DNA of 64,000 nt. Origin: Mytilus galloprovincialis. Taxonomy: Eukaryota > Mollusca > Bivalvia > Mytilida > Mytilidae. The notes below the pieces were generated by a model. It had not been told where the DNA came from and ran no database searches. It saw only the letters and a list, made by a program, of their open reading frames with translations. A program made the translations under genes and the position numbers. The stretch spans positions 55,424,872 through 55,488,871 of the forward strand of contig NC_134844.1 in the NCBI RefSeq assembly GCF_965363235.1. Direction: 5' to 3'. Positions 10,967-61,972 of this stretch are shown here, piece after piece. The first letter of the stretch is position 1. Every line of letters starts with the position of its first letter.

Positions 10967-13900
10967 ATGTTTTCACCGTTCTTGACTTTAATATGGATTC
11001 TGTTAACAACCATTTCATTTTCTGCTGCGTTTTTTGTTGGGAACGGAACTTTTGTAGTTGAGACCAATAAAAGAATAGTTTCATGGAACACAATACTTAT
11101 AGCTCCAACAAGGGCAGACTGTTTACTTTTATGTACCACCAATGGTGTCTGTTGTTCTGCCAGCTACTACGAGAAAACTATGTTCTGTTATTTGAACAAC
11201 GATTGCCCACCCGAAATGGAAAATGATACCAATTCCAAGACATTTATTAGAAAATCAGGTATCTGTTTAAAATAGTTTTATTCCACTTTTTAGTTAATTG
11301 TTCAATCTGTACATATTACTTCAATTACATGTAGTACGCGTGAAATAATTATTTTTGTTAAATTTGAAAAAAAGAAGAAAACAAACGATAAACGTTTTTG
11401 TTTCGTAATATTATTGTACTTTATTGCATTTCTACTCTAATGCATCCTGGGTATTATTCTCAAAAGTGTTTAAACAAAAACGTTGCGATTGGTTAAAAAT
11501 GTCTTACACAGTAACTCAAACAAATAACGTGACGTTATTTTCATTTCGGGTATGGATAATTGACAAAAGTCCTTTAGATTCTAAAACGGCTGCTTTGCCT
11601 TCTTTATGGTTGCCTTTTATGGTTCTATTACCTTGTATCATGGATCTTTATCAAATCATAGAAAAACAGATCGACCGTTAAGCATGAACTTATGTATTTC
11701 AAATGTTAAATGTTAAGCAAGTTGATTGTTGAAGAAGTGGTTTTATGCCCTAGCAACTGAAAATTTTGGGAAAAAAGGGGGGTTGCTATGGCAAGCCGTT
11801 CTCGTCAAAACTATGTTTAAACCCTTTTTTCGAAAAAAATACACACTGAGATTTAAAAACCTAAAATAACACACTGAGAAATCGAAATTACACACTGAGA
11901 TTAAAAAAAATAAAAAACACACACTGAGAATTTAAAATTACACACTGAGATTTTAAAAAGACACACTGAGATGAAATAAATTGAAAAACACATACTGAGA
12001 ATTGTTAATTACACACTGAGATTTCAAAAATACACACTGAGATTTCAAAAATACACACTGAGATTAATATGCAAATTACTAATGAATATTCATGAGATGA
12101 ATAATTCAACTGATTAATATCTTGATCTCAAGAACTCTTGTCATTATAATGAAATGCGATTCCTTCAACCAACATTCGTAATAAATTTCAAGACTTAACA
12201 TCGCTTATATTCATAAGTTAGTTTGTTGCCTATAATTCAGATCATTACTACCAGTAATTAAACATGGGTCTCCCAACTGTTTCCCTGATTTCGCTAGTTA
12301 ATCTTTTATATTTTTGTTACGTTTATATGCTATAATAGACACTTGAGTAAAAATTTCACTGCATTCTTTTGCAGATTGTTCCAATGTTTTCTTATAATTT
12401 TAATAAAGTTTTTCACCATTTGGTTATATTTTGTAATAAAAATAAGTGGGTATTTTTCTTGTTCTTGTATTTCTAAAGTTTTTTTTATTAATAATTTGGA
12501 ACCAAATCGAAGGACTAACGAGTTCTGTCCCCTTGTTGTTTTCCTTAAGCTTGTAATAGATTCAGATGAAGTATGTTAATTAGATATGTGCGCATAAAAA
12601 GTGCACACAAATCTCAGTGTGTAATTTTAAATTCTCAGTGTGTAATTTCAAATTCTCAGTGTGTGTTTTCAGTTTATTTATTCTCAGTGTGTCTTTTTGA
12701 AATCTCAGTGTGTAATTTTCAATTCTCAGTGTGTAATTTTCAATTCTCAGTGTGCGTTTTTCATTTTTGTAATCTCAGTGCGTCTTTATGAAATCTCAGT
12801 GTGTAATTTTTAATTCTCAGTGTGTAATTTTCAATTCTCAGTGTGTAATTTTCGATTCTCAGTGTGCGTTTTGAAGTTTTTAAATCTCAGTGTGCTTTGT
12901 TGAAATTCTCAGTGTGCTTTGTTGAAATTCTCAGTGTGTAAATTATTCGAAAAATGTTTTAAACATAGTTTTGACGAGAACGGCTTGCCATAGGTTGCAT
13001 ACTGTTTTACCTCTGTCCGTCCGTTCCATTATGGGTATATATAGCTATACCATACAACTGCCACTACAGCATTTGTACAAGTTGAATGCAAGGAAGATTT
13101 CACTTTGCTGTCTGTTTATACATATTTTGAAGGAAGGTGTGCATATGGTCAGGGTTTTAATTTTATCTTAATTAAATTAATATTTTTTTCCTTTATTTAG
13201 AGAGTTGTACTTCGTCCTTTTTAGAGTATATACTTGCTTAGGAGGTTAATAGCGTTTCTGGATAACTCCTCCTACAGTGACTCATATATACCTAATAAGC
13301 TATGTGTTCCATTGCTCAGCTTTGTATATTTTGAAATAACACTTTGAATCTGCGGGGACATTATCAAGAAACACCAACAAAGCTAGATAATACAATTAAT
13401 TATATAATTACTACTACAATTTAATATTAATTAGTATTATAATTTTCACTGTTATTAATATAAGTAAGATAAGTCATACAAATCTAATCCTGAATTTCAT
13501 ACAAATCTAATCTTGAATTTCATCCAAATTCTTTCATAATTTTCGGGACACGTTTTAGAAATTTAAATGTAACGTCACTTTGGGCGTTGCATTGACTATG
13601 GCTAACAGGGCTGTGATTTTGTAATGTATTCGTTTTTATTCTATAGCTAGTCACCACTTCAGTTTAATCATGTATATCTATTATACAGTCATTTTATAAA
13701 ATTTACTGTTTGCAAAACTATGTATTATTCTTGATAATAATGATGACTTGTTTTTGTCCCAGGCGGATCACCCTGGACTCACAACTTTTTGGAAATGTTG
13801 GTTCTCGGCGATCTTCAACTTTGTAGTTGTTATGGCTTTCAAACTTTTTACATCTGATCATAGTTTTGTGTGGACGTAGCGCGCGTCTGACGTATACAAA

Positions 13901-16900
13901 TATTTTTTAACCTGTTACCTTTTGATGGCTATTATTCTTTTGTTTCTCTGTCCTATTTTTTCTCCCATTTATCTGTTTATTTTATTGTAACCCTGTCGTG
14001 TAATGTTGTCATTTTAATGTTATAATTAACACTGCCATTAAAGCGCAGTGGCGTAGCTTGCATGTATGCTCGGATGCTCAAGCATCCACATCATTTTGAC
14101 AAAAAAAAAAATAAAAAAAATATTATATGATTGCATGTGTTCACAGCAGATACACACGAAGGTATCCGAATGTAACAAGGGTGAGGATATGAGAACAGCG
14201 TCCAATCATTTCCGAAGCAGTATGCGTGGTTTTCCCTTTAGGATCGTTTAGTTTATGTAAACAAGATGGATAAATTGCCGAAAAGTGCTTTCGACTTTTT
14301 CGTAAAACTTTACGTCGTAGCGCGCAGTCAGCTGTGGCAAGCGCAGATTGTGATGATACATAGACCTGTAGACTTGTTTGGTTTAAAATTGAGCCAAGCA
14401 AAGCGATGACATAGCAAGATTACTAGTAAACAACTAAACAATCATATCCCGATATCGTTTCCTGTGACATGAAAGACGACGATATAAAAACTCTACTAGT
14501 ATTTACTGTAATGGAGTGTGATAAATTCCCATTTCTATTAACTTAAAGGTTCAAATATTTAATTTTATTTTCAATAGAATAATAGAGTTTCAATGTCCCG
14601 CATTACACATATTATATATATCCAAGATACAAGGGCAATAACTAAAAAAGCACTTTTTTTACATTTATTTTAATATCTCAACATGCTCAAGAGAAATAAA
14701 AGCTTCATCTAGCAAACGGGATAGGATTTCCATTATCATTTTATGTTTCCACGGGGCATAATTGGTAAAAAATATTTAATCAGGACTTATTTTAGTTAGT
14801 GTCAAAGACATTTCTGATATAAGTTTCACACAAAGCTTGCAAGAATTGTACACGCGTTAACAAGACAGGACGGACGTCCGATATTTCCATGACCCCTGTA
14901 TAACGCGTTAAGACAAGTCATCAAACAACCCATGGGTTGGATCAAATTCCGCTTCCTATATTTCGAAGTTCCATAAATAAATAAGTGCCGCTGTAATGGG
15001 TCAGTTTATGAGACTGATGTCAAATATAAGATTCGGTGTGAAACTCTTTCATCAAATATTTCTGAATTAAATGAAGGTAGTTTCGAGAAAACAATAAAAT
15101 CTTTTTCGAAATATATATATTGGTGGGTATTTTGAAATTAAACAAAAATTTAGCCAGTGTCTGATTCTAGGGTAGTACACATGCATACAGGGAAAATCAT
15201 CCGAAAAATATAATTTTCTGCATAAAATGGGCCCAAAAATTTCAGTTTCGCATCCACATCTATTTAACCCTGGCTACGCCACTGAAGCGTGAGGTTTGGC
15301 ATGCCACAAAACCAGGTTCAACCCACCATTTTTTCATAAAATGCCCTGTCCCAAGTCAGGAAAATGGTCATTGTTACATTATAGCTCGTTTCGGTGTGTG
15401 TTACTTTTCGGTGTTGTGTCGTAGTTCTCTTATACAAATGTATTTGATACGTTTCCCTCAGTTTTAGTTTGTAACTCGGATTTGTTTTTCCTCTATCGAT
15501 TTTGGAATTTTGAACAGCGGTATACTACTGTTGCCTTACATTGTCCTACATTGACCTTGTTATAATTGATTTACTTTAGAGTGGAAGTTCTTTGATTATA
15601 GTTTTGATTAAAGTAAGGTATACCACCAATTTAGGACGATTGAGTTAGACATCACATTGAAGAAACAAACTAATACATTTATTAGAAACATTCATGAGGT
15701 AACGGGAAACATGGCAAAGTGACAGCAACCCGAAAAAAAGCAGGTTATTAGTATTGCTACAGTCGTATTGATTCTCAGTCAGCTTTTGGTGGTCATTTAT
15801 AAGGGCATACGATACAGTTACAGGGGAGATAATGACGTTGCTAACGTAAATTATTATTTTCGCGACGTCAAACTATGACTTATCGGAAAAAGATTCAGTT
15901 TTCGACTGATTTTTATCACTCAAACTTATCTAACTTGAAAACGAGTTCATGGGCCCCTCTTTTTTAAAAAATTCCGCTTGGTTTGATTACGTTAGAAGAA
16001 TTATGTGTGCCAATTTTCATGAAAACGTAAATAGTGCATTATTTTTAAATTTGATAAATTACTGTTTTTTTCTACATTCGTGATCATTTGATAAATATGA
16101 GTTATTTTATAATCAAATTGCACATTTTAAGGACATTTATATAAAACAGAATTTACAAATAGTTTAACAAAAATCAGCCTGTGTTTATCTTTTTAAACAA
16201 AAAAGTTATGTATTTCTGTCGAAAAGAAACTTACGTTCACAAAACCGAATTTTGAGCAAATATATAAAATTTGGACCTCATTTTACTCAAAAAGTAGCAC
16301 ATAAAGGTATATTTTTTGTCATAACATATTTGATTTAATCAGGCAAAAAATAGCTAATATGCAAATTTTCAGCAAAATTTAAATACGGGACCAAAACAGT
16401 ATCGTATGCCCTTAAAGTGACTGATTTATACATTTATCATGACATTGGTTTTTCATATTCATCTTGTATTGTGTCCTCGTACATACAGTCGTGTTTATTT
16501 TGATAGAGTTGTATAAGCCACTTAGCTTTTAGGGGAAAAGATTTTTTCAGTCGAAACCTATTCCTCCCAAATTGTACCGAGTGTATTTACTAAGCTTAAT
16601 TTGATTTTTGTTTAAAAGTTAATCTAACTTGACAGAGCACCAGAATATTCTACCATAAAGTAAGTAGGTAACCTGTCGAATATTTATCCACTTATAAGTC
16701 AAATATTGTTATTAAGAAAGTTATACTATCGCAAATGCAGGGCCAATGTTAATAAATCGTTAGTATGTCTGCTGTTCAGACCACAGGGGCGGATCAAACC
16801 ATTTTTAAAAGGGTAAGTGTTCTAATCATATGTCCCCATTCAGAAGCTATAGGTCTTAAAAAAAATCGTAACTATCGAAACCCCACCTCCTAGATTCGCC

Positions 16901-19900
16901 ATTGTTTTAAAGCTATCTGAATCTCTCACTTGTACATTTGTATGACAGTTGCATAAAATTCCATTAAATTGACAATGATGTGTGAACAAATCAAACAGAC
17001 AAAAGAGCTAAAAATGTCAAAAATTATATTCATCGTGTTTGAATTGAATCTTTTAAGAGGGGTCTTTTAAGTGAGTTCTGTTTACTATACACTTAATAGT
17101 TTGCAGTTGACAAATGACCGGAAGCCAAACAAACCACCTAAACATGTAACTGGTATGCATTAAAGTATCCAATTTAATCAAATACATGTCAATTGTTTCA
17201 AAATAATACGACAGTCGATATAATTGATTAAACTTAAATTTTGTTTTCATGAATAGAAAAGTAGAATAAAAAAGACGATAAGTACTGTTACACTGTTTAA
17301 TGACTTTTCCGATAGAACTACTATTACAGTTTGCATATTGAGATTTGTTTTAGATTTGAGTGTTTGTTCGATCGGTCTAACAAGACTGTACATACATGTA
17401 CAGTACTGGTTCACGTTAAACACAAAATACGGATCTTGTCAGGCATCCGGTGAATTTGAAAAGGAACAAACACATTTAGGACAACCATGTTGGAACAAGG
17501 AATTTGAGGTTCTTAAGGGGACAATAAGGCATTATACAAGCGTATCGGAGATATAGGGTTGCTAAGCTTCGACAGTGGAGCGCCACCTATAGTACACAAT
17601 TATATCATATCATATAGCTTAGCTGATACTTTCATCAGAAAATTTGAAAGTCCACCCTACGTATTGGCTATCCAAAAGACACACACAACCCGTTTAAGTA
17701 CCTATTCATCACTGTTTTTTGTTTTCCATAGTTTAAATACCATACTTTTAAAACAAGCAATTTCAAGATAAAAATAGAAAAAAAGGCGGGAAAATCTAAA
17801 TATTGAACGAAAGATAGAAAACATTTGATTTTTGGTGGTCAACATGTCATATACTTGTATTTTGCCAAACCACGTGAAAGAGGGATGCAAGATTCCAGAG
17901 GGGGAGTCAAACTCATAGATAGAAATTAAACTGACAACGCCATGGCTAAAATTGAAAAGACAGACAGACAAATAAATATAGTACATGAACAGAAGACACA
18001 ACATAGAAAACTTAAAACTATGCAACACGAACCCCACCAAAAACTGGGGATGATCGCAGGTGCTCCGGAAGGGTATTAAGCAGATCCTGCTTCACACGTG
18101 GCAACCGTCGTGTTGCTCATGTTGTGACAAATCCGGTAAATTGTCTAACTTGGTAGGTCACATTCGTGGAAAGGGAAGGGTATTGTAGTAACGACATAAG
18201 GAACATATCCGATATCATCTGTGAAACGGTTATTCCATAACGGTCAACCAACTCGTGATGGCGTCCGTAAAATTTACGAAGGGATGATTTCAACTTCACC
18301 ATTTGGAACTCTTTGTTTAATCGCTTCCTTGTGAGTAGCAATCCTCTATGAAGGAAATCATGATAGAAATACAAGCCCGGGAATATCGTATCAATTGGGA
18401 GATATATACTCCGTATCTAGGCGCTGCTGGAATGTTGCTACATAGGAATGGAAAGTTCACAATTGGAAAGCTGACATCATCTCCTTGTCGTAAAGTTTTG
18501 TTTTGAAATTTTGGAATGGGGAATACTTGTGTAAAGTGTAGAAAATTCAAATGTTTTAATACTTTTGCAAGATGAAAGAGTCTTAGATTTAATATACTCT
18601 AAAAGATCTTCTAATGTTTAGTATCCATGCACATCTGATTCACGCCACCTGTAGAAAATGCAGTTTCACAATAACGTTGCAGCCCGGCTTTAATTGCTGA
18701 TAAAATAGATGTTAATAATTTAGAAAGAGGTTTATAGGGGCACTTGGAAGACCCATCAATATACCGTTGTTTGTCAGGACACTTATGTAGTTTAGGTATC
18801 CAATGCAGTGATGGAAGATCCAGTTCTTCATCTTTAGTTGAAATTCCAAAGGAACATAGAACAGACATGTGGTTATCAAGGATTTCCTCTTTGGTAAGTG
18901 ATTGATTGTATACTGGGTTTTATAAGAGGTATGTGAAGAGGGGCGGTACGTATAGGAAGGGATGTCATCCCGAATTCCCACCCACCCCAAACAAAAACAA
19001 TTTTCCCCCAGATTCTGATAAACAAATTCCTGAGTCTTGAAGTGTAAATCCCGACCATTCGTGAAACTAAAGCCTCAATCCCTAAGTCCCACAAAACAAT
19101 TAAAGGCCCAATTTCGACGTTCGACCTAACTGCATAGTTTTTGAATCATCGGCTTACAGTTTCAGATATTATTTTGTCCTTTAGTTATATTTAACGATTT
19201 TTTCATATTTTTTTGTGTTTAAGAATGCGAACATGACGGATATATATATCATACGAAAGCTAATGCATGCTTGAGGTTAATAGAATCACCAGGAATAACA
19301 TGGATGAATGCAAGAACAGTATGCTTGGAAAACGGCGGGGATTTGGCCAGTATAAAAACTGTGGAGAAGATGGATTATATGCTGGATTTTATAAGAGGTA
19401 TGCGATTAGTTACATTTAAGTAAGTTCTTAAAATTGCGTCAAGGCACAAATCCGGAGAACAACCATTTGTGTACGATGGATTTACTTTCCGTATCGACAG
19501 AAGTCTGCGGATATTTCATGCCGATGCACTGTAAATAATTGTAAAGGTACTACAACAAATTCCCTATTTCTTAAATGTCTTTAAGCATCACTACCGTCAG
19601 TAGAATATTTGAGTACTACAAATGGTCCGGAAACATAATGATTACTAAAAAAGACCCGGAATCATTCCACGCTCACTGCAAGGACCGTTTTTTTTAGCAC
19701 ATCTATGTACTTAAATTTGTGCACGTTACTACATGTACAATCCCTACATTTAATCTTTAGATTTACTATTTTTACTTGTAAACATTTCGAGGACTTTTGA
19801 TGCTGGAACATTTTAGTTAGAAATTAATGAATAAGTATAATCTACCTCGACAAAAATGCGAATGTAATCGAAAGCTATGCGCAAATTTAAATGACGTTAG

Positions 19901-20293
19901 CCCGCAATTGTAAAGCACCAACCCAAACAATTACAACACCAACAACAACAAAAATATTCAAGTTGAAAAAAATCCTTTATCTATATATCATTTTTTTCAA
20001 ATGAAATAATATGCATTCATTATCTGTGAAATTAGTATTCATGTATATATGGAACCACAATTATTTCAGAAACCGACCAAGTTTGGATTGGTCTCAGACA
20101 AGGACAATGGATGACAGGAGATATCTTTATGAATGTATATAACATAACTGTAACATTGAATAACATCGACACCACATACACACAAGACAGTGATGCTTCA
20201 TGTGGTTTACTTAAATCGACTAGACTGAGGGACAGAAGTTGTAACTTTCGAAAAAAAAACCACTTTGTTTGCGAGATAGTACTCCAAGCGTAG
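10967..20293 (+). CDS. Secreted PAN/Apple - C-type lectin domain protein (3 exons)
   Basis: Exons 10967-11258, 19224-19397 and 20070-20293 (introns phase 1, GT-AG) join to 690 nt, 229 residues. Residues 1-21 form a signal peptide. Residues about 24-95 are a PAN/Apple module with cysteines 52, 56, 62, 63, 74 and 80. Residues 99-224 form a C-type lectin domain: cysteine pair 99/113, W124-NAR, C131, GGDLASI (135-141), VWIGL (160-164), C200, C213 and FVCE (221-224). Ca2+-site motifs (EPN/QPD and WND) are absent; LRDRSC (208-213) stands where WND-C is expected, so classical Ca2+-dependent sugar binding is doubtful. The 8-kb first intron holds the transposon remnants at 11.8-18.9 kb, and a further symmetric exon there cannot be excluded. 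AATAAA is at 20416. The cysteine layout of exon 1 is the same as in the two PAN-FTP genes downstream, suggesting shared origin. The likely role is extracellular recognition, perhaps in immunity; this is inference. Confidence 0.8.
11788..12992. mobile_element. Fold-back element with opposed ACACACTGAGA motif arrays
   Basis: Perfect 35-bp terminal inverted repeats (11788-11822 and 12958-12992, beginning TATGGCAAGCCGTTCTCG) are flanked by the direct repeat GGTTGC (11782-11787 and 12993-12998), a 6-bp target-site duplication. Inside the left end about 10 copies of ACACACTGAGA are spaced 15-30 bp apart. Inside the right end about 15 copies of the complement TCTCAGTGTGT run to the terminus. The central 0.5 kb has no recognisable transposase; the frames at 12343-12791 are AT-rich or run through the motif array. 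It is non-autonomous and lies in intron 1 of the PAN-lectin gene. Confidence 0.9.
12999..13740. other. Intronic sequence, nothing recognised
   Basis: AT-rich intron sequence of the PAN-lectin gene with a small direct duplication (TCATACAAATCTAATC at about 13476 and 13499). No coding or RNA gene was seen. Confidence 0.4.
13745..15560 (+). repeat. Retroelement tail (family D), split by a later insertion
   Basis: Two parts, 13745-14045 and 15285-15560, form one continuous repeat once the element at 14046-15284 is removed. The repeat ends GAACAGCGGTATACTACTGT. Truncated minus-strand tails of the same family start at about 41030 and 48185 (GGCAACAGTAG). Confidence 0.6.
14046..15284. mobile_element. 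hAT-like non-autonomous DNA transposon
   Basis: A 1239-bp insertion with 12-bp terminal inverted repeats CAGTGGCGTAGC / GCTACGCCACTG. It is flanked by AAGCG at 14041-14045 and 15285-15289. The CAGTGGCG terminus suggests the hAT superfamily, though the readable duplication is 5 bp rather than the classical 8. The small frames inside do not resemble a transposase. Confidence 0.75.
15801..16413. mobile_element. MITE with AAGGGCATACGATAC ends
   Basis: Inverted termini at 15801-15819 and 16395-16413 match at 18 of 19 positions. The element is 613 bp with no ORF. Target-site duplication is not clear. Confidence 0.75.
16414..17880. other. Intronic sequence with small repeat fragments
   Basis: Contains a 121-bp hAT-like fragment (16784-16904, ends CAGGGGCGGAT / ATTCGCCATTG) and a fragment related to 49290-49380 (CTTGTATGACAGT, AATTCCAT, ATTGACAA). 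Frames at 17053-17771 show no family resemblance. Confidence 0.4.
17880..18920 (-). pseudogene. Internally deleted reverse-transcriptase retroelement (family B)
   Basis: On the minus strand the N-terminal part (about 18920-18620) encodes DEELDLPSLHWIPKLHKC, then PLSKLLTSIL and STGGVNQM. After roughly 100 bp of unrelated reading the C-terminal part (18490-18130) gives SFPIVNFPFL, YGVYISQLIRYSR, LRKFYGRHHELVDRYG and SQMISDMF. The palm region between GVNQM and the C-terminal block is missing and several frame changes occur, so it is dead. It is followed by the family B tail (18070-17880, GCCATGGCGTTGTCAG on the minus strand). It sits antisense in intron 1 of the PAN-lectin gene. Confidence 0.75.
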
Positions 20294-20609
20294 AAAAACA
20301 TATTACTAAATGGACACATACTAAAGTTGCAAAAAAAAAATAATCCCCGCCTTCCCACACCCAATTATTAAAAAAAAAATACCTACAGCTCATTTGGTAT
20401 ATTGTAGGCAAAATCAATAAAAATGATGTAGATTTTTTCAAATGCACAAACATTTAAAAACCGATAAAGCGATGCATATTACTTCAAAAGCACGAACATT
20501 TATTTTCAGTGTCAATAAAATTTGCATTATGACAAAATAAAAAAGAAAACTTCACTTTCGCGCTATTGCTTTCGAATGAAGAAGATCTGCATGCATCGGA
20601 TACTATCAG

Positions 20610-20770
20610 AGATACCAGCCAGGATTGAAATTTTATATTTACGCCAGACGCACGTTTCGTCTACAAATTATTCAAAGATTCATCTGTGACTCTCGAATAA
20701 AAAAAAAGGCAAAAAAAAAAAAGGATGAAGTTGAAACGCAATGAGGACCGAAAATTCTAGAAGTTTTTTT
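20610..20770 (+). repeat. SINE-like repeat (family C)
   Basis: Contains ACGCCAGACGCACGTTTCGT, a diverged ACTCATCAGTGACGCTC block and GAAGTTGAAACGCAATGAGG. It matches 63790-64000 in the same orientation. Confidence 0.7.
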
Positions 20771-20779
20771 TTAAATACA

Positions 20780-21285: not shown

Positions 21286-21287
21286 TT

Positions 21288-21451: not shown

Positions 21452-21521
21452 TAATTACGTCTTTTTAACTAGGAGCATGAAAACACTATTTCTATCAAGT
21501 TTTTCTATAATTTACCTGTGC

Positions 21522-41870: not shown

Positions 41871-42335
41871 TCAAACTGACGCTATGTGTCGTGCAGAAAA
41901 TCAAACTGACATTATGTGTCGTGCGTGTAAGACTTGTAATATCAAACTGACGTTATGTGTCATGCGTGTAAGACTTTAAGATCTAACTGACGCTATGTGT
42001 CGTGCAGAAGATCAAACTGACATATGTGTCGTGCATGTGAGACTTTAAGATCAAACTGACGCTATGTGTCGTGCAGAAAATCAAGCTGACATTATGTGTC
42101 GTGCGTGTGAGACTTTAAGATCAAACTGATTTTATGTGTCGTGCAGAAGATCAAACTGACATTATGTTCGTGCGTGTAAAACTTGTAAGAATAAACTGAC
42201 GCTATGTGTCGAGCGTGTAGGACTTGTAAGAATAAACTGACGCTATGTGTCGAGCGTGAAGGACTTGTAAGATCAAACTGATGCTGACTGTCGTGTATGT
42301 AAGACTTGTAAGATCAAACTCACGTTATGAAAAGA
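41868..42335 (+). repeat. Satellite array, copy 1 (38-44-bp units)
   Basis: About 12 irregular units of ATCAAACTGACGCTATGTGT then CGTGC, some shortened after CGTGCAGAA. The following sequence (GATCGGAAAATA, GGGTCAATC, AAAACAT) is shared with that following the array at 54707-55590. Confidence 0.85.
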
Positions 42336-45918: not shown

Positions 45919-48780
45919 ATGTTTCTACAACGTTGGAAACTTTTATTTTACCTGACTGCACTGCCGGATATAGTTGCTTCCCTAAAATCGAATCAACAAG
46001 CATTCAGTATCGAAATAAATAAAATGATACTTTCACATCATACAAGTTCAGTAGATAGTTCCATCATAGCTTGTGCAGTGTCATGCGTTTCCGATTATAA
46101 CTGTTGTTCTGCAAGTTATAACGAAGACAGCAAGGTCTGTTTGCTGGGAAACCAATGTTCACCGGTGATGGAAGACTCGGCAAGTTTCAAGACGTTGACC
46201 AAACAACCTAGAGGTATTATACGTTATATAACATTAATTTACTATTTTTCTTTGCTTTCTTTACTGCAATAATCTAGTTTTTTTTTAGTATTTATAGAAA
46301 GTAGAATTATAATGTTGATTGAGATTATCCAGTTATTGGAACAGTGCAATCTTTTTTAGCTTCAAAATTGTTTTCTAAAGGAGTACATTTGTATCAAAAC
46401 TCGTATGTTCCATTGAGATAGAAACATATGCTCATTTTGCTCGATTAAACTTTTGTAGTATGTACTTCCGATTGATTGTGAACTTGTTGTTGTTGTTATT
46501 GGTTTTGGTGGGCGGCTTACTTATATAGTAATTGCGCCTTAAATTCATATAACATAAATATTATGTATATATACTTTCAGTCCTTAACTTATTTTTAGTA
46601 TAACGTTTTGGCGAGTAATTATATGAAACTTTGACGAGCATGGTTGACTGAGTTACTAAGAAATATATATATGTTGAGAGACAAAAAAAACACATAACAG
46701 AAAATACATGTAATAGGAAAACGAAAAGAAAAAAAAGCAAATAATAGTCCCTAATGAAATGTACATTGTGAACTTAACTTTTCAATATTGTCATCACATA
46801 ACGATTGTTATCAATTGTTTGATGGACAACTACAAATGGGACCCTACACAAAAACAATAATTTAAACACAAGCGTAAGATAACTGCGCTTAAATTCATTA
46901 AAAAAGGTTATTGTAATCATTTATTTTTACACAACCTATTATTTATTTTCATTTGTTACAATAAACATTATTTCTAGATGTTGCCTATGGAAAGTCAGCC
47001 AAACAAAGTTCAGTGTTACACAATCGCCCTATAAACATTGCATCAAGGGCGGTTGACGGAGATTTAAATACATGGATGCACACTAAATGGGAGAATATGC
47101 CATTTTTGATTGTTGACTTGGGCAAAATATATAAAATCAAACGAATTGAAATCTTCAACAGAAAGTCAGTTATAAAAGAAGTTGGTGAGTGAAGTAAACA
47201 TAGAGTTTATTCTTCGCTGATACGTATTTTGAGAGTTTATCATTGTCACAATTATTGTAACATTAATAATCATTTGTTAAATGCCAAATTAGTGCTTATC
47301 ATTCGTGAAAATCAGAACAAACCAAATAACCATGATAACCGTGTTAAAGAAGAAAGGAAATCCGAACATGGGATGATAAGAATACAGTGACATAAGTGAA
47401 ACACAAATTAGTATTTGGTCCAGAAAATAAAGACGTATACCAACAACAGAATTACTAACATTTAAAACTCTTTCATTATTCATTGCATAATAAAAGAGGG
47501 ACGAAAGATACCAGAGGGACAGTCAAACTCATAAATTGAGAATAATCTGATAACGCCATGGCTAAATACGAAAAAGACAAACAGACAAACAATAGTACAC
47601 ATGACACAACATAGAAAACTAAAGAATAAGTAACACGAACCCAACTAAAAATAGGGGTGATCTTAACTGTTCCGGAAGGGTAAACATATCCTGCTCCACA
47701 TGTGGCACATAATAAATGTATATGTTATAATTCGAATATAGCAATGAATGTAACAAATAAGGAGATGAAGTACGAATGCTATAGAGATAACTTTTCCCAA
47801 GAGATAAACAAACGAAAATGCAAATGTTTGCACCTGTCCTAAGTCAGGAATCTGATGTACAGTAGTTGTCGTTTGTTTATGTAATATATACGTGTTTCTC
47901 GTTTCTCGTTTTGTTTATATAGATTAGACCGTTGGTTTTCCCGTTTGAATGGTTTTACACTAGTAATTTTGGGGCCCTTTATAGCTTGTTGTTCGGTGTG
48001 AGCCAAGGCTCCGTGTTAAAGGCCGTACTTTAACCTATAATGGTTTACTTTTTAAATTGTTATTTGTATGGAGAGTTGTCTCATTGGCACTCACACCACA
48101 TCTTCCTATATCTATAGAGTATGCAAACCCCTCATTGCAATTCAATGTTCGTTTAATTTTGAATTAACACACCAAACGTCATATAAATAAAGGCAACAGT
48201 AGATTACCGTTGTTCAATGAGATAAAAAGGCGACAGATGTCAAAGGAACATTTGACTTCATTAATAAATAACAAACGTTAAATACTATGGCGAAAAAACT
48301 ATCAAAGACAAACAACAATATACAATAGACAGAAAAAAAGAATGATTTTCAGCATCTGTACATGACTGATAAACACATTTATTTTAAATGAACCGTTTTA
48401 GTAGACACTTGGTCTAGTAAGTAGAACAATAAATATTGTTGTGGGCGTTATGTGGGATAGTGACGATTTACACATTGATGAGACATAACCCGTATTATTT
48501 AATTTCCCCAGAAAATATAAAACAAGTATTTCTAGATAAAAATGAATTCACCGCTTCTACATGTTATTTTTTTTATATAGTAGAACGTCTACATGACTTG
48601 GACATAATTGTTGGACCGAAAGAGAATGAACTGCTACTATGCACTCATTACGTAGGACCGTCTCTAAACGGAGAGCATCTTGTGTTCGAATGCAAACAGG
48701 AAAATACACGTTATGTCAAGTTGATGATTAATGGTACTGAATTTTTGCACGTTGCTGAAGTTAAAGTGTATGCATGGTAG
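45919..48780 (+). CDS. Secreted PAN/Apple - fucolectin-like (F5/8C, FTP) protein 1 (3 exons)
   Basis: Exons 45919-46213, 46978-47184 and 48581-48780 join in phase 1 to 702 nt, 233 residues. Residues 1-21 are hydrophobic and probably a signal peptide. PAN cysteines are 52, 56, 62, 63, 74 and 80, exactly as in the PAN-C-type lectin gene. Residues 99-233 fit the eel-fucolectin/tachylectin-type F5/8C fold: VAYGKSAKQSS, ASRAVDGD (120-127), MHT (132-134), IVDLG (143-147), IEIFNR (155-160), VG (178-179), cysteines 188 and 205, RYVKL (211-215) and AEVKVYAW. The fucose motif of this family usually has R-x-D after the histidine; here NRKS lacks the Asp, so sugar specificity is unproven. The exon 3 acceptor could be three bases later (TAG|TAG ambiguity). 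AATAAA is at 48891. Confidence 0.85.
47495..47710 (-). repeat. Retroelement tail (family B)
   Basis: AGAGGGACGAAAGATACCAG, then AACGCCATGGC, ATGACACAACATAGAAAAC and CTGCTCCACATGTGGC; minus-strand tail in intron 2 of PAN-FTP gene 1. Confidence 0.8.
47840..48118 (+). repeat. Truncated retroelement tail (family A)
   Basis: TCCTAAGTCAGGAATC, GTTGTCGTTTGTTTATG, AAAGGCCGTACTTTAACC and GAGAGTTGTCTCATTGGCAC; plus-strand copy in intron 2. Confidence 0.75.
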
Positions 48781-52286: not shown

Positions 52287-52449
52287 GGATAACGCCGTTT
52301 TTTTTTATTATTCTTGAAGCTCTAGTATGAAGTAAGAATTATTATAAAAAAACATTGTCTTTATTCAAAATTTTAAATATTGGGAAACTGTCTGTTTGAG
52401 AAATAAGTTTGAATATCCTTTAAGAATTTTTTTGCTCCTCAACTTTGTA

Positions 52450-52555
52450 ATTGTTTTTGGTTTCGAACTTTTTTGATTTGAGCGTCACTGATGAGTCTTA
52501 TATCGATGAAATGCACGTTTGGCGTATAAGATTATAAGCCTGGTACCTTTGATCA
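52450..52555 (-). repeat. SINE-like repeat (family C), short copy
   Basis: TTTTTTGATTTGAGCGTCAC, TGATGAGTCTTA, GGCGTATAAGATTATAAGCC and GGTACCTTTGATCAC. Confidence 0.7.
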
Positions 52556-52869
52556 CTATTTAGCCTGTCTTTCTTCACCTCAAATTCATATTTGTTCTTG
52601 AGGCGGCCATTTTGTTAATGCAACAAAAATTGACTTATATTTGAAATATGTCTTGTAATTTAACATGCTGGTCTCTTTTGCAAAATGTAGCGATGTTCAA
52701 TATTTGTTAACTTTCCTACAGGAGCATTTTTGTCTCTTTATTATTTTGTCTATTTTCTTGGCTAAATGGTATAAAATTATATTTTTTTGCAACTAATACA
52801 CTAAGGGTTTTTACACTCAGACATTGATTGTCTAATTCGAAATTTGACACATCTTCTTTTGAACTTGTG

Positions 52870-54706
52870 GGTTTTAATGATTTTCAATCACGTTCACGAT
52901 TCTGCAACTTCTAAGTTATATGCAATTGACATATAAGTAAAAAGTTTGAAAATCACAAAAACTCCTAGGAAAATTCAAAACGAAAAGTCCCTAAAAAAAT
53001 GGCAAAATCAAATGATAAAGCACATCACAAAGATTATATTCCTGACTTGGTACAGGCACGATGCGTGAAAAAAACCAGACACAATAGGTAACAGTGTCAA
53101 AATATGGGTTCAGCAGTTATCCCTGTGTCACAATCTTAAAACAAACAGACATATTTAAAAAAAGAAGCACAAAAAGCATCTATCACATTTAACAACCACA
53201 TTCATTGCTTACTAATATATGTATTTTATATCAACCCATAAACCATTGAAATATTTGACTGCTTTCACACCAACTCTTTGTGTATGTAGACTCGCGTGTT
53301 TCAGTCAGAAAATGAAAACGTCACACAGGAAGAAATATAAAATAATTTTGTCGTTCAAAGCATTTTCTAAATTATAATTTCACACGGGGAATGATGGTAT
53401 ACAGGGTTGAAAAATCTAATAATTTTGTAAGAACTAATTTCAGAAAAAGACCGAGATTTTAAATTATCCAGTAGTTCTTTAAAATTTTTTAGAATCCAAA
53501 TATAGTTAATATCACTAAGCGAGTAAAATTGTGTCGTTCAAAGTATTTTCAAAATTATAATAGAACAATAACATTATGGCGGGATCTTTAAAAGTACAGA
53601 GCCACGTCATAAGTACCAAAGAAACACAAAAAGTCACACGTACAAAACACACCAGCAAAAATGAAAGATAATACAAACACATTGACGGGATTTATAAGTA
53701 CCGAGCCACGTCAAATTGATATCACAGAAAACAAACCAAACAGTAAAAGTAATGTTAACAATAGAACAAAGACAAATAAAAGAACAATATAACAGGTTAT
53801 TAAGATGATAAGTAACGTCAGAACGCAGAATCTATAGATAAAGACCATCATGTATTATTTGTGAAGTTGATACGGAATATTTATCAACAAGGTCTTGGTA
53901 CCTCCCGATGAACTTAAGTAATTCAAAGATAGTGTACTAATACCAAATGACTGTTCGTGACTTCAATTCAAATATTTGTACTTTTAATGGACAGATTTTT
54001 TGTTATTTTTATCTACATTATTATATAATTTCCACTTCATGAGTTATAAGATTTTTTTTTATCCATATATCATTCACATTTTAACAAAATGAATCACCCA
54101 GAGACACTCAAATGCCTAATCGCAAATGAAGGTTCATGATTTTCAATTAAAGGATAACTTATCTGTACTTTTAAGCAAAGATAACATATTTTATCTCATA
54201 ATACTCATATTTAATGAATAATAACTTTACCCTGATGTACAAAATGTACTAATATTTAATGACAGTTCATGATTTCCATAAACGTTGAGACATAGTTGCA
54301 CTCTTATTTAACACCCACAAAATATGAAAAAAAGAAGACTTACCTTAACTCACTATGCTTGCTTAGAGACGACTTAATTTCCACCACATACCAGATGACA
54401 AAGAAGTTAGGAACTATAGTTCACCTTGGAGCCCTAAACACTCTCAAGCAATGCGAACAACATAACTGTTAATGATTACTAGTATATTGAATGTAAACAC
54501 CATCCTGCGCAATATAAAATCCTGTAACTTGGTTTGTTGTTGTAAACAGTCAAATAAATAAAATGTTGTTAAAACATGATGTTGAACTACTTCAAAGGCA
54601 AACGAACGAATACAGCATGAAAGTTTAAATGATACAAATACAGACTGATATAATATGAATCGTCTAACTCCTTATTCATATAATAACTCTTTAGTATCGT
54701 CAATGC
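52870..54706. other. No gene seen
   Basis: Non-coding part of the second duplication unit, with a fragment shared with 49220-49380 (CCTGACTTGGTACAGGCAC). A GGGATCTTTAAAAGTACAGAGCC-like segment occurs at about 53580, with a related one at about 53690 (CGGGATTTATAAGTACCGAG). No exons. Confidence 0.4.
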
Positions 54707-55590
54707 AAGACTAGTAAGATAGAACTGACGTTATGTGTCGTGCATGTAAAACTTGTAAGATAGAACTGACGTTATGTGTCGTGCGTGTAAGACTTGTAAG
54801 ATCAAACTAACGCTATATGTCGTGCGTGTAAGACTTTGCAGATCAAACTGATGTTTTGTGTCGTGCGTGTAAGACTTGTACGATTAAACTGACGTTATGT
54901 GTCGTGCGTGTAAGACTTGTAAGATCAAACTAACGTTATGTGTCGTGCATGTAAAACTTGTAAGATAGAACTGACGTTATGTGTCGTGCGTGTAAGACTT
55001 TTAAGATCAAACTAACGCTATATGTCGTGCGTGTAAGACTTTGCAGATCAAACTGATGTTATGTGTCGTGCGTGTAAGACTTGTACGATTAAACTGACGT
55101 TATGTGCCGTGCGTGTAAGACTTGTAAGATCAAACTAACGTTATGTGTCGTGCATGTAAAACTTGTAAGATCAAACTAACGCTATATGTCGTGCGTGTAA
55201 GACTTTGCAGATCAAACTGATGTTTTGTGTCGTGCGTGTAAGACTTGTACGATTAAACTGACGTTATGTGTCGTGCGTGTAAGACTTGTAAGATCAAACT
55301 AACGTTATGTGTCGTGCGTGTAAGACTTGTAAGATAGAACTGACGTTATGTGTCGTGCGTGTAAGACTTCTAAGATCAAACTAACGCTATATGTCGTGCG
55401 TGTAAGACTTTTCAGATCAAACTGACGTTATGTGTCGTGCGTGTAAGACTTGTACGATTAAACTGACGTTATGTGTCGTGCGTGTAAGACTTGTAAGATC
55501 AAACTAACGTTATGTGTCGTGCATGTAAAACTTTTAAGATCAAACTGACGTGATGTATCGTGCGTGTAAGACTTGCAAGATCATCCTGAC
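54707..55590 (+). repeat. 41-bp satellite with five-unit higher-order repeat
   Basis: About 21 units of 41 bp (core AACTGACGTTATGTGTCGTG). Variants recur in the fixed order A (ATAGAACTGAC), B (ATCAAACTAACGCTATATG), C (ATCAAACTGATGTT), D (ATTAAACTGAC), E (ATCAAACTAACGTTATG), giving a 205-bp higher-order unit seen four times; the third lacks A. Confidence 0.95.
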
Positions 55591-57244
55591 TTTATGGAAA
55601 AATCGGAAAATAAGGGTCAATCTCGAACCAAAAACATTACTGAATCACAAAATAACAACCTAGCCAAAAAGATGGGAAAAAACCCACAACAGTCTATAAG
55701 GCCCTAATACATGTAAAACAATGTATAAATCTAAACTTTCCCCAGATTCATCGTCAGGTTCCTAAAATCAATTTATGCGCCACAACTGCATCCGTCAAGA
55801 CGCATTCTTGATTTTTTAAAATGTACGAAAATAATATCGGTTCTATAGGGACTTTCCGTTCGAATTCGAGTTCGAGTCATACATACATTGCCAGAAGTGT
55901 AAAAAAAACATTTTGTTTACGGAATGAACATTCAGTTTACGCACTACTGCCATACAGTTTGCATTATCATCACATATAGTCGTTTTTACATTTACACCTA
56001 GGGGTTCGTCAGTCAAAATTGAAATTAGATGGTTTGGGTATTCTGTTCTGACATTGTTTTCTTTTTATCTCTCGATTTGATGGCAATTTTTACTTTCCAA
56101 ATTGTGTTATCTTACTTTCCCGATGAAAATGACATGTATTCTTGACTAGAAGAACGTAAGAACTTACCAAAACGATTTATTGATACCATTTGGTTTTGAA
56201 CTATCAGTGCCTGCGAGTACCATACGGCTTATAACCATTAGTACTTTGTATTGACATGACGTAAATATATTTTGTGTAAACTATCAATCACAAATTATGT
56301 AAGACAATTGCGTGTACTTCTGTAGACCAATTTCAAATTTACCTCGCACGGTCGGACATACTTTTGATGTATTCGACCCGATTTGTAATACATTTGGCTT
56401 TTCAAAAGAAGCCAGTGCTTTGTATTAGTTTGCTCTATTTACATTTTCTGTAAATATAAAAAATTAGGGAGAAGTAGTATGATGCATCAAGTGCATATAA
56501 TTATTATGATTTTGATAAATAAAATTTTCAAATTATCATTCACACATTACCTGATAGCTATTAAAAGTAACTCCTAAAGTATTGCTGATAAGGTATTTCC
56601 GAGGGCATATCTTGATTTTGATGAATTAAATTGAATTAATAATTGACAATAAGCTCATCTGAATGATGTGTTTATAATGACATGATTTCCACAGCTTGTT
56701 CAATTTATTATTTAATTTGTTAAGTACGTTTCTGGTCAGATTATAGACTTTATTGAATTTCATTTTCTTCAAATAGATTTTTTTTTACCACAATGGGTTT
56801 GTTAATTGGGAATGGCTGATTATAATTAAACGATATTCTGTATTCTTCTCGTGCAATTTTCTTTTCTCGTTTTATTTTGTTTTGTTTTACTAGTAGATTT
56901 GTTTGTCAGTTTTAGTTTTCAACGTGGTTTGTCTCTTTCTAACAAGTACTTGAACATCGGTAAACTACAATCGTCTCAATTTATAAACCTCTTTGAAACA
57001 TTCGAAGTTTAATTACCTGACGAATACTGCAATTGTACTTGAATTTATGTTTCAACTGCCGAGGACCATGTCAAAATAAGAAAAAAATACTTTTATCCTT
57101 ATGTTTATTTTAGTGTGGTATTTCAGGTAATTTGTTTAACAAAATGGATTGGCTTTTGATCTTAATCATGTATGGTTATATTCTAATCCAGTAATATGTG
57201 TTGCCTTTTATGACTATTAACTTTAAAAATTGGTCTCTCATAAC
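55591..57244. other. Segmental duplication body, no gene
   Basis: Parallel to 42336-45660 without the 719-bp element. I see no exons. Confidence 0.5.
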
Positions 57245-57403
57245 AGCATTTCTGATTGGTAAATGAATTTGAGTCGTCAAAACGTAAATCAAGCAGCTAC
57301 ATATTAACAAATAGTATGTATTATAGACAAATCACATTAATGCTATATTTTGTTGCATCTAACCTTACAAACTGTATAGAGCATTCGGACTGCGGAATAT
57401 AAA
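57245..57403 (+). promoter_or_regulatory. Candidate promoter of PAN-FTP gene 2
   Basis: Conserved block as at 45660-45810. TATAAA is at 57398-57403, 113 bp before the ATG, followed by GTACA in both copies. Confidence 0.5.
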
Positions 57404-57515
57404 GTACATGTTTAGATAGTGAGTCAAACAAGGTTTTTTAAATCATATATCCATTTAGTAATCAGGCATTTGATAATATACCTAAGGAAGACCATTGAAG
57501 ATAAAAAAATCCGAT

Positions 57516-59929
57516 ATGTTTCTACAATGTTGGAAAACCTTATGTTACATGACTGCACTGTTTTATAATGTTCGTTCCATGAAATCGAATCAGCAATCAT
57601 TTATTATTGATGTAAATAAAATAATACGTTCACATCAAACACGTCTAGTGGATTGTTCGATCATAGCTTGTGCAGTTCTGTGCACGTCCGACTACAACTG
57701 TTGTGCTGCAAGTTATAACGAGGACAGTAAGATCTGTTTGTTGGGAAATCAATGCTCACCGGTGATGAAGGAATTGGCGAGTTTCAAGACGTTGACTAAA
57801 CAACCTAGAGGTATGATATGTAATATGACATTAATTTATTATTTTTCTTTGTATTTCATCTTCTACAATAATATAGTGTTCCTTTACGATTTACAGACAA
57901 GAAGAATTATAATGTTGATTGAGATTATCCAGTTATTGGAACAGTGCAATTTTGTAGCTTTAAAATTATATTCTTAAGGAGTACATTTGTATTAAAACTC
58001 GTATGTTTCATTGAAATAGGAACGCACAAAAATGTTGCGTTATTAAACTTTTACTTCGTGTTTATCCGGTTTATTGTGAAACCAACATTTCAACATTATT
58101 ATCACATAATCGTTATACATCAATACCAGATCATAAGAGGAGATGGCCAAAATATTTACATTAGTAGTTTAACTACATATTCTCCTCATCTTTGTCCAAA
58201 CTAGAGCATATCGAGAGTGATAGCAGTTATATCTTTTTTTGTCTTTTAATTATAAAATTTTAAAGCTTTATATTATCTTTTTTTATTGACCCACTCAAAT
58301 GAGATCTTACAAAAAAACTTATTTAATCACAACCTATTCTTTATGATTTTAACGTTAATATAGATATTTTCATTTATTACCTTTAACATTATTTCTAGAT
58401 GTTGCTTATGGAAAGTCAGCCAAACAAAGTTCAGTTTTCGACAATCTCACTGTAAACATTGCATCAAGGGCTGTTGATGGAGATTTTAATACATTGATGC
58501 ACACTGAACGAGAGTATATGCCATTTTGGGTTGTTGACTTGGGCAAAAAATATAAAATCAAACAGATTGAAATCTTCAACAGAAAGACAATTCTAAAAGT
58601 GGTTGGTGAGTGAAGTAAACGTATAGTTTAATCTTTGCTGATGCGTGTATTTAGAGTTTATCATTGTCATTATTAGAGCATTTGCATTATTCACGCATCT
58701 CGATACGTGCACGGGTCGACGTACACGTATCGGGCAGATTTGTATACATTAAAGATTTATACCTCAATTAAAACTGAATTAAAATTAAATCCATTATAAA
58801 ATATTTTTATTGGGACCAACTTCGTCCCAGCTTCGTTACGGATACGCTAGTAAATACGTGAATTATGCAAATGCTATATTAGAAGTGGGACTTTTAAAGA
58901 CGTATCGTATCTGTATCTGATACGTTGACGTATTTGAACGTATCTTTTGGTTATTGTTAAAATACATATAGCAATCGAGAAGAGTTGGAAACATAGTGAA
59001 AGGACGATAACATTTTGTGGTCTCGTTCATTTTTAATAAACGAATTGGTGTTTAAATAACTTTAATAGATGTATTAGATGGATTTACATAATTGCTTCTT
59101 GTATACCAAAATCCTGATTTTTATATCTATTATTGCCCTAAAAGTTATGTTTCTACGATACATATTCACACTACCTATAACACAATTATGATTGATTGAT
59201 TGTTAGTTGCTTAACCATGTTAACGTCCAGTAGTAACACAATTAGTAAAACAGAAGCTAACATTTACACACATTTAACAATCACGTGTTTTTCGTGTCAA
59301 ACCATATACTTAACACCCGATATTAAATCAGTAGAATAACCTAGGCTTGAAGTTGAATTATAAAACAAATAAAGTTAACGTTAAGAATATTTATACGCGT
59401 ACTTTAAATTTGCTGATAAATGGGGACTGAATCATTCATCATCAGCAGAGTTAGATTGATGATTGATACCAATAATAATACATTTAGCAGGCAATACTTT
59501 TTTCAAATATTGAAAATGAAAGAGATCAAAAATTGTCACCACCCTTTCCCTTTTTGTTCCCTGTATTTTCCCTGTTCTCGCGCAATTTTTATCACAGTTT
59601 TTGACTCAATCATCAACATTTTCAGCGTTTTAATTTCAATTTATGTCTGAAAAGTGATGATTAAAGGTTTCAATATCGAGTGTTTAGTTATAAATGAGTA
59701 AACATAAATTAATTGAAAACTATTTTGTAATAAAAAGAGTGTGCTAATGACCGAAAGACATCTAACATAACAAAAAAAACAACATATAAACATGTACTAT
59801 CTAAACACATAAATAATCAATTTTAAGCAATAACCCACAGATACGTTCATATACGTCAGCGTATCAGATACGGATACGATACGTCTTTAAATGTCCACTT
59901 CTATTATTACTAATATTATTATAATAATT

Positions 59930-59986
<57 letters not shown>

Positions 59987-61972
59987 ATTGGGATTACTAT
60001 AATTGTGTGTGGACAAGCATATAAAGACTTATACAAACCAAAAAAATGAAATATAAAAATAACTTTAAAAATTAAATTACTGATTGCATAATGCATGTAC
60101 CAACGCCATAATTCGAATATACTTATACATATAAAATTAAGGAGATGGAGTATAAATGCTATTGAGATAACTATCATTTATACAACAACAAACGAGTAAT
60201 TTAACCTCTATAATTCATTAAACATGTACGTTTAATTTTGAATTAACAAAACAAACACCATTATATAAGAGAGAAAACGAAAAGAACAGTTTAACACTAT
60301 ATAACTTCCCAAAATTGAGTGTTATATGTGGTGGTGAAGATTCACAAATATAAATATAAATATAAAGTAAATAGATACAAAATGTAGTCCCCACATGATT
60401 GATTCAGATATACAACCATGGTATCTTTAATGAGTATTTTTCTAGTATGATTGTTGTGCTTATGAATGTACTTAGGTGAGGTTTTTGAATTTGTGTGAGA
60501 TGTTCGGAATCCTTTTTTACCATACGATGCAAGGTAAAATATTTTGCCCAATAACACCCATTTATTTTTCATACAAAACTTAAAAGCTCATAAAAGAAAA
60601 TTTGCCAAAATTTAAGCAGATTCTAGATTTTATTTCTTTTGTTTTGAGACCCAAATGATACCAATGCAAATATAAGGTAAAAGTCCGAGTCAGCCATTTT
60701 CCGCCATATTTTGAAAATGAAATATCTCGAAAAGGAGTCCGATGACCTAACAATATTTTAATCTTTTTTTGTTCCTTAGCTAATGCTCTACCTACTTATA
60801 CTATGAATTTTAAATTCTTGATTTTTTTTATTTCACCTTAGTAGAGGGGGTGGACAGCTAAAAAAGAGAGGTGGGAGAAGAGGTGGTGGGAGGTGGGAAG
60901 CAAGGGGTTGGGAGGTGGGAGAAAGGAGAGAAGAATGTGGGAGAAAAAAAATATTTTCTATGTAAAATTAATCTAGAGCCGATTTAATCGAGAGTGACCA
61001 TAAATGATATAAGATTGGTCTTTGATTTTCTTAAACTTTTATACAGCATTTAAAATCATTTAACATGATCTAACATCATTGTGATTCATTGTGGTTCATC
61101 ATTGAAATCAATAACGGAAATTGTCATTGCATCCGGATTCGATATAATTTCACAATGACATACTGCTTAGCCTTTATTTTAAGATAATAATTGAATTATT
61201 TGTTGTGCTATAATGAATAATTATTCACATATAGAAGTTATTATTTTTAATAACTACCTGAGATTATTTGCGGCGTACCGATCTTGGGCTGGTGTGTTAA
61301 TTACCTTTAAGATAAACACGCGAGGAAAATAAAACGAAAATAATCGTAATAAAAACGAGTTTTTATACAACCACAAAAAAATTTGCGGTCGTATATATTG
61401 CTATCACGTCGTCGTCCAAGTGAATGTATATCTATAAAATAGAACCACAAGATTCCATACTACAAAATAAAGGTTGGGATGATTTTGGGGGTTATGGTCC
61501 TAACCGTTTAGGAATTAGGGGCCAAAAAGGCCCAACAAAAAGGAATAATAACTTGAGTTTAAGTCTATGGATCTCTGTAAAATTATAACACAAGGTTCCA
61601 TGCTAAATGAGGAGGGTTTGGATTGATGTTGAGGGTAATGGCCCTTACCGTTTTTGAGTCCCGTTTTCAAACTGGTCTTAGTATAGCCTTATGTGTTGGT
61701 TACAGATACGCTCACCATTACAATAAGTCTTCACTTACATTATTGTTATTAGAAAATGTTTATTTTGTATAGGAGAACGTCTGCATGACTTGGATATAAC
61801 GGTTGGACCGACAGAAAATGAAATGATACTATGTGCTCATTACGTGGGACCGTCTAAAAGCGGAGAACATCTTGTGTTCGAATGCAAACAGGAAGATACA
61901 CGTTATGTCAAGTTGATAATTAACGGTACTGAAATATTGCACGTTGCTGAAGTCAAAGTGTATGCATGGTAG
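57516..61972 (+). CDS. Secreted PAN/Apple - fucolectin-like (F5/8C, FTP) protein 2 (3 exons)
   Basis: Exons 57516-57810, 58399-58605 and 61773-61972 have exactly the lengths of PAN-FTP gene 1 (295, 207, 200 nt), phase 1 throughout, 233 residues. I chose the ATG at 57516 because the paralogue starts there; an upstream in-frame TTG is not a credible start. The six PAN cysteines are conserved, with an extra Cys in CSIIACAV. The FTP part differs at about 18 of 69 residues in exon 2 and 10 of 65 in exon 3. It has PFWVVDLG where gene 1 has PFLIVDLG, and NTLMHTER for NTWMHTKW. NRKT again lacks the R-x-D Asp. Intron 2 is about 3.2 kb and holds two MITEs and an ATT microsatellite. AATAAA is at 62085. 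Both copies look intact. Confidence 0.85.
58676..58876. mobile_element. Short MITE (AGCATTTGCAT ends)
   Basis: AGCATTTGCATTATTCACG at the left is mirrored by CGTGAATTATGCAAATGCT at the right (one mismatch). The element is about 200 bp and GATACG-rich, in intron 2 of PAN-FTP gene 2. Confidence 0.85.
58881..59902. mobile_element. 1.0-kb MITE (AGAAGTGGGAC ends)
   Basis: About 66-bp inverted termini include AAAGACGTATCGTATC and CTGATACG, then TGAACGTATCT; the right end finishes GATACGTCTTTAAATGTCCA then CTTCT. The body has no transposase; the frame at 59420-59650 is unassigned. It starts four bases after the previous MITE. Confidence 0.85.
59905..59990 (+). repeat. ATT microsatellite
   Basis: Imperfect (ATT)n of about 80 bp. 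The poly-isoleucine frame on the minus strand is an artefact of it. Confidence 0.9.
60630..60790 (-). repeat. Interspersed repeat, inverted partner of 6380-6557
   Basis: See 6380-6557; includes the complements of GGCTGACTCGGACTTTTACC and CTCCTTTTCGAGATAT. Confidence 0.65.
60840..60955 (+). repeat. G-rich purine tract
   Basis: Repeated GGTGGGAG and GGAGGTGGGA words over about 110 bp, in intron 2 of PAN-FTP gene 2. A possible G-quadruplex former. Confidence 0.7.
61380..61720 (+). repeat. Two-unit degenerate intronic repeat
   Basis: Two diverged direct units share AGATTCCATACTA / AGGTTCCATGCTA, AGGTTGGGATGATTTTG / GGGTTTGGATTGATGTTG and GTTATGGTCCTAACCGTTT / GTAATGGCCCTTACCGTTT. It lies just upstream of exon 3. 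Confidence 0.65.

Follow-up and report, generated by a model that had tools for sequence, protein, structure and literature searches.

Whether a single exon, encoding a secretion leader and a PAN/Apple domain, serves repeatedly as the first exon of proteins with different lectin folds is the question raised by a stretch of DNA of the mussel Mytilus galloprovincialis (contig NC_134844.1, positions 55,424,872 to 55,488,871; 64,000 nucleotides, termed the window). Three predicted genes of the window, termed genes A, B and C, begin with such an exon. We propose, with a probability of roughly 0.7, that these genes are members of a large family, dispersed over the genome, whose common leader exon has been combined with different C-terminal domains by old phase-1 exon shuffling. 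According to this proposal, the leader exon, which consists of the secretion leader, the PAN/Apple domain and a phase-1 donor, would have been shuffled through phase-1 introns, and its partners would be a C-type lectin-like domain (CTLD), an F-type lectin domain, a fibrinogen-related domain (FReD) and two domains that match nothing in Pfam. The products of genes A, B and C, as read from the sequence, would be small proteins with one PAN domain and one C-terminal domain, and no anchor after it. These proteins are probably secreted, as suggested by their hydrophobic N-termini, which were judged by eye.

Homology of the three PAN exons

The first exons of genes A, B and C, which encode the leader and the PAN domain, are located on the plus strand at positions 10967-11258, 45919-46213 and 57516-57810 of the window respectively. 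All three exons open with a methionine and a hydrophobic leader (by eye), are 3n+1 nucleotides long and end at an AG/GTAT donor (CAG/GTATCT in gene A), which places the first intron in phase 1. An earlier note on this DNA had claimed identical cysteine numbering and phase-1 ends for these exons, and both claims hold: cysteines 52, 56, 62, 63, 74 and 80 are common to the three exons, and the gene C exon has three extra cysteines at 5, 10 and 47. The claimed match in exon size is approximate (292, 295 and 295 nucleotides for A, B and C) but not exact.

The three exons align with a single gap, which is located near the end of the gene A exon. In a translated search of the window, the PAN exons of A and B share 31% of 96 residues aligned without a gap (E 1.8e-10). 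When the whole chains of A and B are compared by blastp, the match has an E value of 4e-14 and an identity of 25%, over a longer gapped stretch that extends past the exon. Exons A and C are 36% identical over 69 residues (E 4e-12). The local alignment score is 128 for both A-B and A-C, whereas 1000 shuffles average 26 and never exceed 50. When the cysteines are kept fixed, the shuffles average 43 and 41 and reach at most 79 and 78. These scores are far below 128, and the common numbering of the cysteines is therefore due to homology. The second intron is also in phase 1 in genes A, B and C. Extracellular modules are usually flanked by phase-1 introns, and therefore phase alone is weak evidence. 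The Pfam PAN_1 profile scores below its cut-off of 21.4 bits in the full chains (17.2, 18.7 and 18.0 bits for A, B and C), and above it when the mature PAN domain of A is scanned alone (24.6 bits). Judging from these comparisons, the three first exons are homologous PAN modules.

Lectin domains of genes A, B and C

The second and third exons of gene A (19224-19397 and 20070-20293, plus strand) encode the first and second halves of a CTLD. The exon joins of this gene are predicted; exon 2 is in phase 1 at both of its ends, and exon 3 ends at the stop codon, with nothing beyond the domain. The chain matches the Pfam Lectin_C profile at 2.1e-11 and contains six cysteines in the long-form pattern and a WIGL core. 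Locus L011 (loci outside the three genes carry L numbers and contigs C numbers; the window lies on C7) has the order of gene A again, with a PAN exon followed by two exons for the halves of a CTLD of the same subtype and an intron of about 3.4 kb. This result supports the join of gene A exon 1 across 8 kb. A long near-perfect palindrome, noticed by eye, is located at about 10627-10695, approximately 270 bases upstream of gene A exon 1. Within intron 1 of gene A, two arrays of CACACTGAGA-type units, at 11835-12065 and 12608-12950, face in opposite directions.

Genes B and C, both on the plus strand, encode an F-type lectin domain in two exons after the PAN exon. The first half of this domain (F5/8C_2 in gene B) is encoded by exon 2 (46978-47184 in B and 58399-58605 in C), and the second half, with the stop codon, by exon 3 (48581-48780 in B and 61773-61972 in C); the joins are predicted for these genes as well. 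The Pfam F5_F8_type_C_2 profile matches at 2.4e-11 for B and 4.7e-13 for C. The best relative of the C chain in the PDB is FBP32 (3.2e-14), and fucolectin-related proteins are also among the best. Thus, with the joins taken as predicted, Pfam bears out the assignment of a C-type lectin domain to A and an F5/8C fucolectin-like domain to B and C in the earlier note. Its claim of a homologous secretion-plus-PAN exon in front of two lectin folds is likewise upheld, and across the genome the exon is followed by more than two kinds of domain.

Genes B and C are tandem copies and are 76% identical. The dN/dS ratio between them, calculated from rounded counts, is 0.40 for the whole chain, indicating that non-synonymous change is held down; it is 0.20 for the mature PAN domain (Fisher p 1.5e-5) and 0.48 for the F-type lectin part (p 0.035). 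In both chains, 26 residues separate a histidine from the first arginine, which is followed by KS or KT (RKS/RKT) and later by another arginine. The histidine, the two arginines and the cation motif VDGD are kept in both. PMC5712786 prints the motif for fucose binding as HX24RXDX4(R/K); B and C do not contain it, and RXDX4R is absent from them. According to the accessible part of the same paper, eel agglutinin also has 26 residues from His52 to Arg79, in spite of the HX24R of the printed motif. A 41-base satellite unit is present at 41900-42329, upstream of gene B, and again at 54707-55596, between genes B and C.

A genome-wide family of PAN exons

The assembly (1.385 Gb, 331 contigs) was searched with the PAN exon of gene C (97 residues) at E<=1e-3, and 150 of 176 candidates were scored, so that the count is a lower bound. 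At least 49 PAN exons are found: those of A, B and C and 46 elsewhere, on contigs C1, C2, C5, C6, C7, C8, C9, C10 and C14. Most of the 46 have a methionine with a hydrophobic leader (by eye) and the PAN cysteines; L016 has no clear leader. The best-scoring donor within a fixed stretch is in phase 1 in 44 of 48 PAN exons, which are related to one another (L050, in which no donor is seen, is left out). The four exceptions are L015, which is intronless, L036, L047 and L054. Donors picked by hand are located 44-52 codons past the first cysteine. PAN_1 is detected at E<=0.1 in 27 of 28 family members, and C33, C37, C43 and C55 are invariant across 28 aligned rows. In profile searches of the PDB, the PAN domain matches a Kelch domain-containing protein (6ryv, 1.1e-9), the heavy chain of factor XI (6.6e-6) and micronemal protein 4 (6.8e-5); the resemblance to PAN/apple chains of solved structure is one of sequence.

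Reuse of the PAN exon is old and genome-wide, and is not a recent event inside 50 kb. The earlier note had placed the reuse of this cassette within 50 kb, and this claim fails: A and B are only about 31% identical, the 49 exons are spread over nine contigs, and B and C alone form a local pair. The same identity and the same spread rule out a recent local event as the origin of the cassette.

Partner domains of the PAN exons

Downstream sequence was covered for 25 of the 49 PAN exons (20 loci of 10 kb, genes A, B and C, L030 with four targeted exons and L035 with 4 kb). A fibrinogen-related partner is present in eight of these 25: L015, L017, L022, L023 and L035, by Pfam, and L030, L016 and L028. 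The assignment of L030 is based on its DNA match to L015, and that of L028 is weak (tblastn E 0.09). A CTLD follows the PAN exon in four (A, L011 and L025, by Pfam, and more weakly L027, which is called from its near-identity to L025), and an F-type lectin domain in another four (B, C, L009 and L026). The short fragments of L027 and L028 give no Pfam match. At two further loci, L031 and L036, which are outside the 25, a fibrinogen exon is located downstream by coordinates only, at 22 kb in the case of L036. No galectin partner is seen in the 25 loci.

The other partners are two domains for which no Pfam or PDB match is obtained, save one PDB match at E 0.61. One of them is a conserved domain encoded by three exons, which is present in five of the 25 loci (L013, L014, L020 and L021 by sequence, and L019 by coordinates), all on C8 at 36.55-36.76 Mb and 40.56 Mb. 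This domain has 85 matches in the genome at E<=0.01, the others being located on C5, C13, C7 and elsewhere. Among the PAN matches listed, none is seen by eye beside it outside those C8 loci. The other is a single-exon domain of L018 (about 3144-3715, minus strand), with three cysteine-rich repeats that carry the motifs W..LC..W, QCG, YYRD and C.M.W.

Fourteen loci were read in frame, and at 12 of them the most pyrimidine-rich AG before the first exon of the partner domain is in phase 1. At the other two, L020 and L028, a phase-1 AG is present at the corresponding place and another AG ranks higher. L018 is also in phase 1; it is outside this count together with L013, both having been read there in another frame. 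For the family, the homology of the PAN exons, the phase and the order of the domains are established by these data.

An intronless copy

L015 (C2:28184374-28185009) is a single open frame of 347 codons, which encodes a leader, a PAN domain and a fibrinogen domain (Fibrinogen_C, 5e-59). The same parts are encoded by a five-exon gene with the PAN exon L030 (C8:69923354-69931644). L015 matches the L030-type exons at 88-91% DNA identity, and none of the four introns is present in it. At the first junction of L015, CCAG, the end of the PAN exon, is joined to TTTTCAG, exactly as predicted from the phase-1 sites. Each of the three remaining junctions is located inside an alignment overlap of a few bases. 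L015 thus shows the splice from the PAN exon to a recognition domain for one member of the family. It is a retrocopy-like gene with its frame kept. The match between L015 and L030 extends at least 270 bases upstream of the PAN start, over the stretch compared, suggesting either a long 5' untranslated region or copying by a route other than plain retroposition.

History of the combinations

Exons of F-type lectins are abundant in the genome (at least 150, scored from 207 candidates). They are densely clustered at C7:54.87-55.49 Mb, and genes B and C are located at the edge of this cluster. Among the matches listed, as judged by eye, a PAN exon of the family is in front only at B, C, L009 and L026, and most F-type exons of the C7 cluster have no PAN match in front. 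L055 and L056 are about 63% identical to gene C in lectin exon 2 and have no PAN in the 9.8 and about 4.5 kb upstream respectively, suggesting that PAN is a trait of a subset of F-type genes. The leaders of these PAN-less genes were not found in the upstream sequence searched (9.8 kb for L055 with L058, about 4.5 kb for L056 and about 2.1 kb for L057). PAN queries give only weak matches upstream of L055-L058, the best at E 0.005, with stops.

In the tree of the PAN exons, close relatives share partners and the deep forks are without resolution. At least six changes are needed for five partner states (with L035 then unclassified). As far as the resolution of this tree reaches, the PAN exons of the two architectures do not fall into unrelated clades, an outcome that the earlier note had named as refuting its claim. 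When near relatives are included, the one-clade tests give p 0.21 for CTLD, 0.30 for FReD (0.14 with L031) and 0.26 for F-type lectins. Rejections of one clade for CTLD and FReD were obtained when near-identical unlabelled paralogues were omitted; they are an artefact of this omission and vanish once the paralogues are included. The p value of 0.059 for A with L011 alone is the same artefact. A single fusion for each partner and several fusions would both fit the data; these tests do not reject a single origin for each partner. We read this history as old shuffling followed by duplication.

Alternative explanations

The same proteins might have another job, in gamete recognition, shell matrix or mucus and not in immunity. 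This is rather unlikely: the bindins of oyster sperm are F-type lectins that have diversified, according to the accessible part of PMC5712786, but the spread of recognition folds in the family would fit a broad recognition of ligands better.

It is improbable that the architectures are ordinary ones, each lectin lineage having met its own PAN domain independently, with phase 1 as the metazoan default and no useful family to be named. Such an explanation would accommodate the fact that modules of phase 1-1 are the rule outside cells, as well as the lack of resolution in the deep part of the PAN tree and the sharing of partners by close PAN relatives. The combination of PAN with fibrinogen is, moreover, already known in molluscs (PMC7588048, in its accessible part). 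However, at least 49 exons match one query of 97 residues, most of them share the layout in which leader and PAN are encoded by a single first exon, with phase 1 best in 44 of 48, and the alignment scores are far above those of cysteine-keeping shuffles. A mis-join of gene A, with an orphan PAN exon at 10967 and a different first exon for the CTLD exons at 19224, is very unlikely, because L011 repeats the order and the CTLD subtype and the strand, order and phases fit, even though the 8 kb intron contains repeats and transposon-like open reading frames, no PAN is present close upstream of a related CTLD on C10, and L010, the closest PAN relative of A, has no partner found.

Several observations weigh against the old shuffling of one leader exon. 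The exon joins of A, B and C are predicted from DNA alone, and the census of partners rests on 25 of 49 PAN exons. Most extracellular modules would be expected to agree in phase. The structure model of the gene A PAN exon, built from three sequences, is poor (pLDDT 54). No PAN is present in the 4.6 kb upstream of the A-related CTLD on C10. Three of the 25 PAN exons (L010, L012 and L024) have no partner found, and the fibrinogen match of L016 (tblastn E 1e-4 and 4e-4) includes a stop inside one exon and is not accompanied by a clear leader; some copies may therefore be orphans or pseudogenes. EPN, QPD and WND are absent from the CTLD of gene A, and this domain is therefore termed C-type lectin-like, its sugar binding being unproven. 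B and C are without two features of the classic site for fucose, the aspartate and the pair of vicinal cysteines, and are therefore classed as F-type domain proteins and not as proven fucose binders.

Comparison with known systems

The concept closest to the family with a PAN leader is the gastropod VIgL family (FREP, CREP and GREP), whose members have their N-terminal module in common and differ in the lectin fold behind it. According to the accessible part of PMC5433772, these folds are fibrinogen-related, C-type and galectin, and the proteins act in recognition in plasma. In the mussel family, in contrast, the shared module is PAN and not immunoglobulin, and the partners include F-type lectin and uncharacterised domains. 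Pfam gives no match to an immunoglobulin domain in A, B, C or L015, which carry PAN in place of the N-terminal immunoglobulin domains of VIgL proteins.

PAN/Apple combined with a FReD is reported for four genes of Crassostrea gigas, some FReDs of Lottia and FREP1 of Biomphalaria, and PAN modules are described as making protein-protein or protein-carbohydrate contacts (PMC7588048). These mollusc proteins resemble the mussel proteins in joining PAN to a FReD, but the partners of the mussel PAN exons also include CTLDs, F-type lectin domains and domains that Pfam does not recognise, and the snail case also carries an immunoglobulin domain. The likeness to the oyster and limpet proteins is given here at the level of domain architecture. 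The statement of the earlier note that no described family has these architectures is accordingly only partly right: PAN with fibrinogen has been reported in oyster, limpet and snail, but PAN with F-type or C-type lectins is not met in the bivalve literature searched, which was covered by titles and the starts of abstracts and mostly without subscription papers. No PAN/Apple lectin is mentioned in the accessible parts of PMC10140915, PMC5549309, PMC7653742 and PMC8382680.

F-type lectins and fucolectins include the best PDB relatives of C, and their histidine, two arginines and VDGD are present in B and C. However, B and C differ from them in the absence of the RXD aspartate and the vicinal cysteine pair and in the N-terminal PAN, and their loop to the second arginine is three residues longer than that of eel agglutinin. 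Bivalve CTLD-containing proteins (CTLDcps) also join a CTLD to an additional module and have bivalve-specific architectures, but PAN is not named among their extra domains in the accessible part of PMC10140915.

Other features of the window

A tandem array of a 42-base unit, with about 42 copies, is located at 7403-9166; about 600 codons are free of stops in two of its minus-strand frames. The minus-strand open reading frames at 18120-19145 and 5714-6283 resemble, judging from a motif, fragments of Penelope-type reverse transcriptases. Pfam gives no match for six open reading frames of the window outside genes A, B and C, three of the Penelope-like frames among them.

Implications

Most probably, the PAN domain makes protein contacts or assembles oligomers and the C-terminal domain binds a surface ligand, so that each protein would act as a soluble pattern-recognition protein. 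Such a division of labour between PAN and lectin, and a role in immunity, are plausible for the family. More tentatively, and at somewhat less than even odds, the approximately 50 or more genes with a PAN leader may form a dispersed superfamily, in which the PAN exon has been spliced repeatedly onto at least five recognition folds, two of them without a Pfam match, and which would provide a combinatorial soluble repertoire as the bivalve counterpart of the VIgL family. If this is true, the two domains without a Pfam match behind the PAN leader would be candidate recognition folds, and the choice of scaffold in invertebrate immune repertoires would become testable. Bivalves, which have no adaptive immunity, would then have built a modular recognition repertoire on the plan of the snail VIgL family, with PAN as the scaffold.

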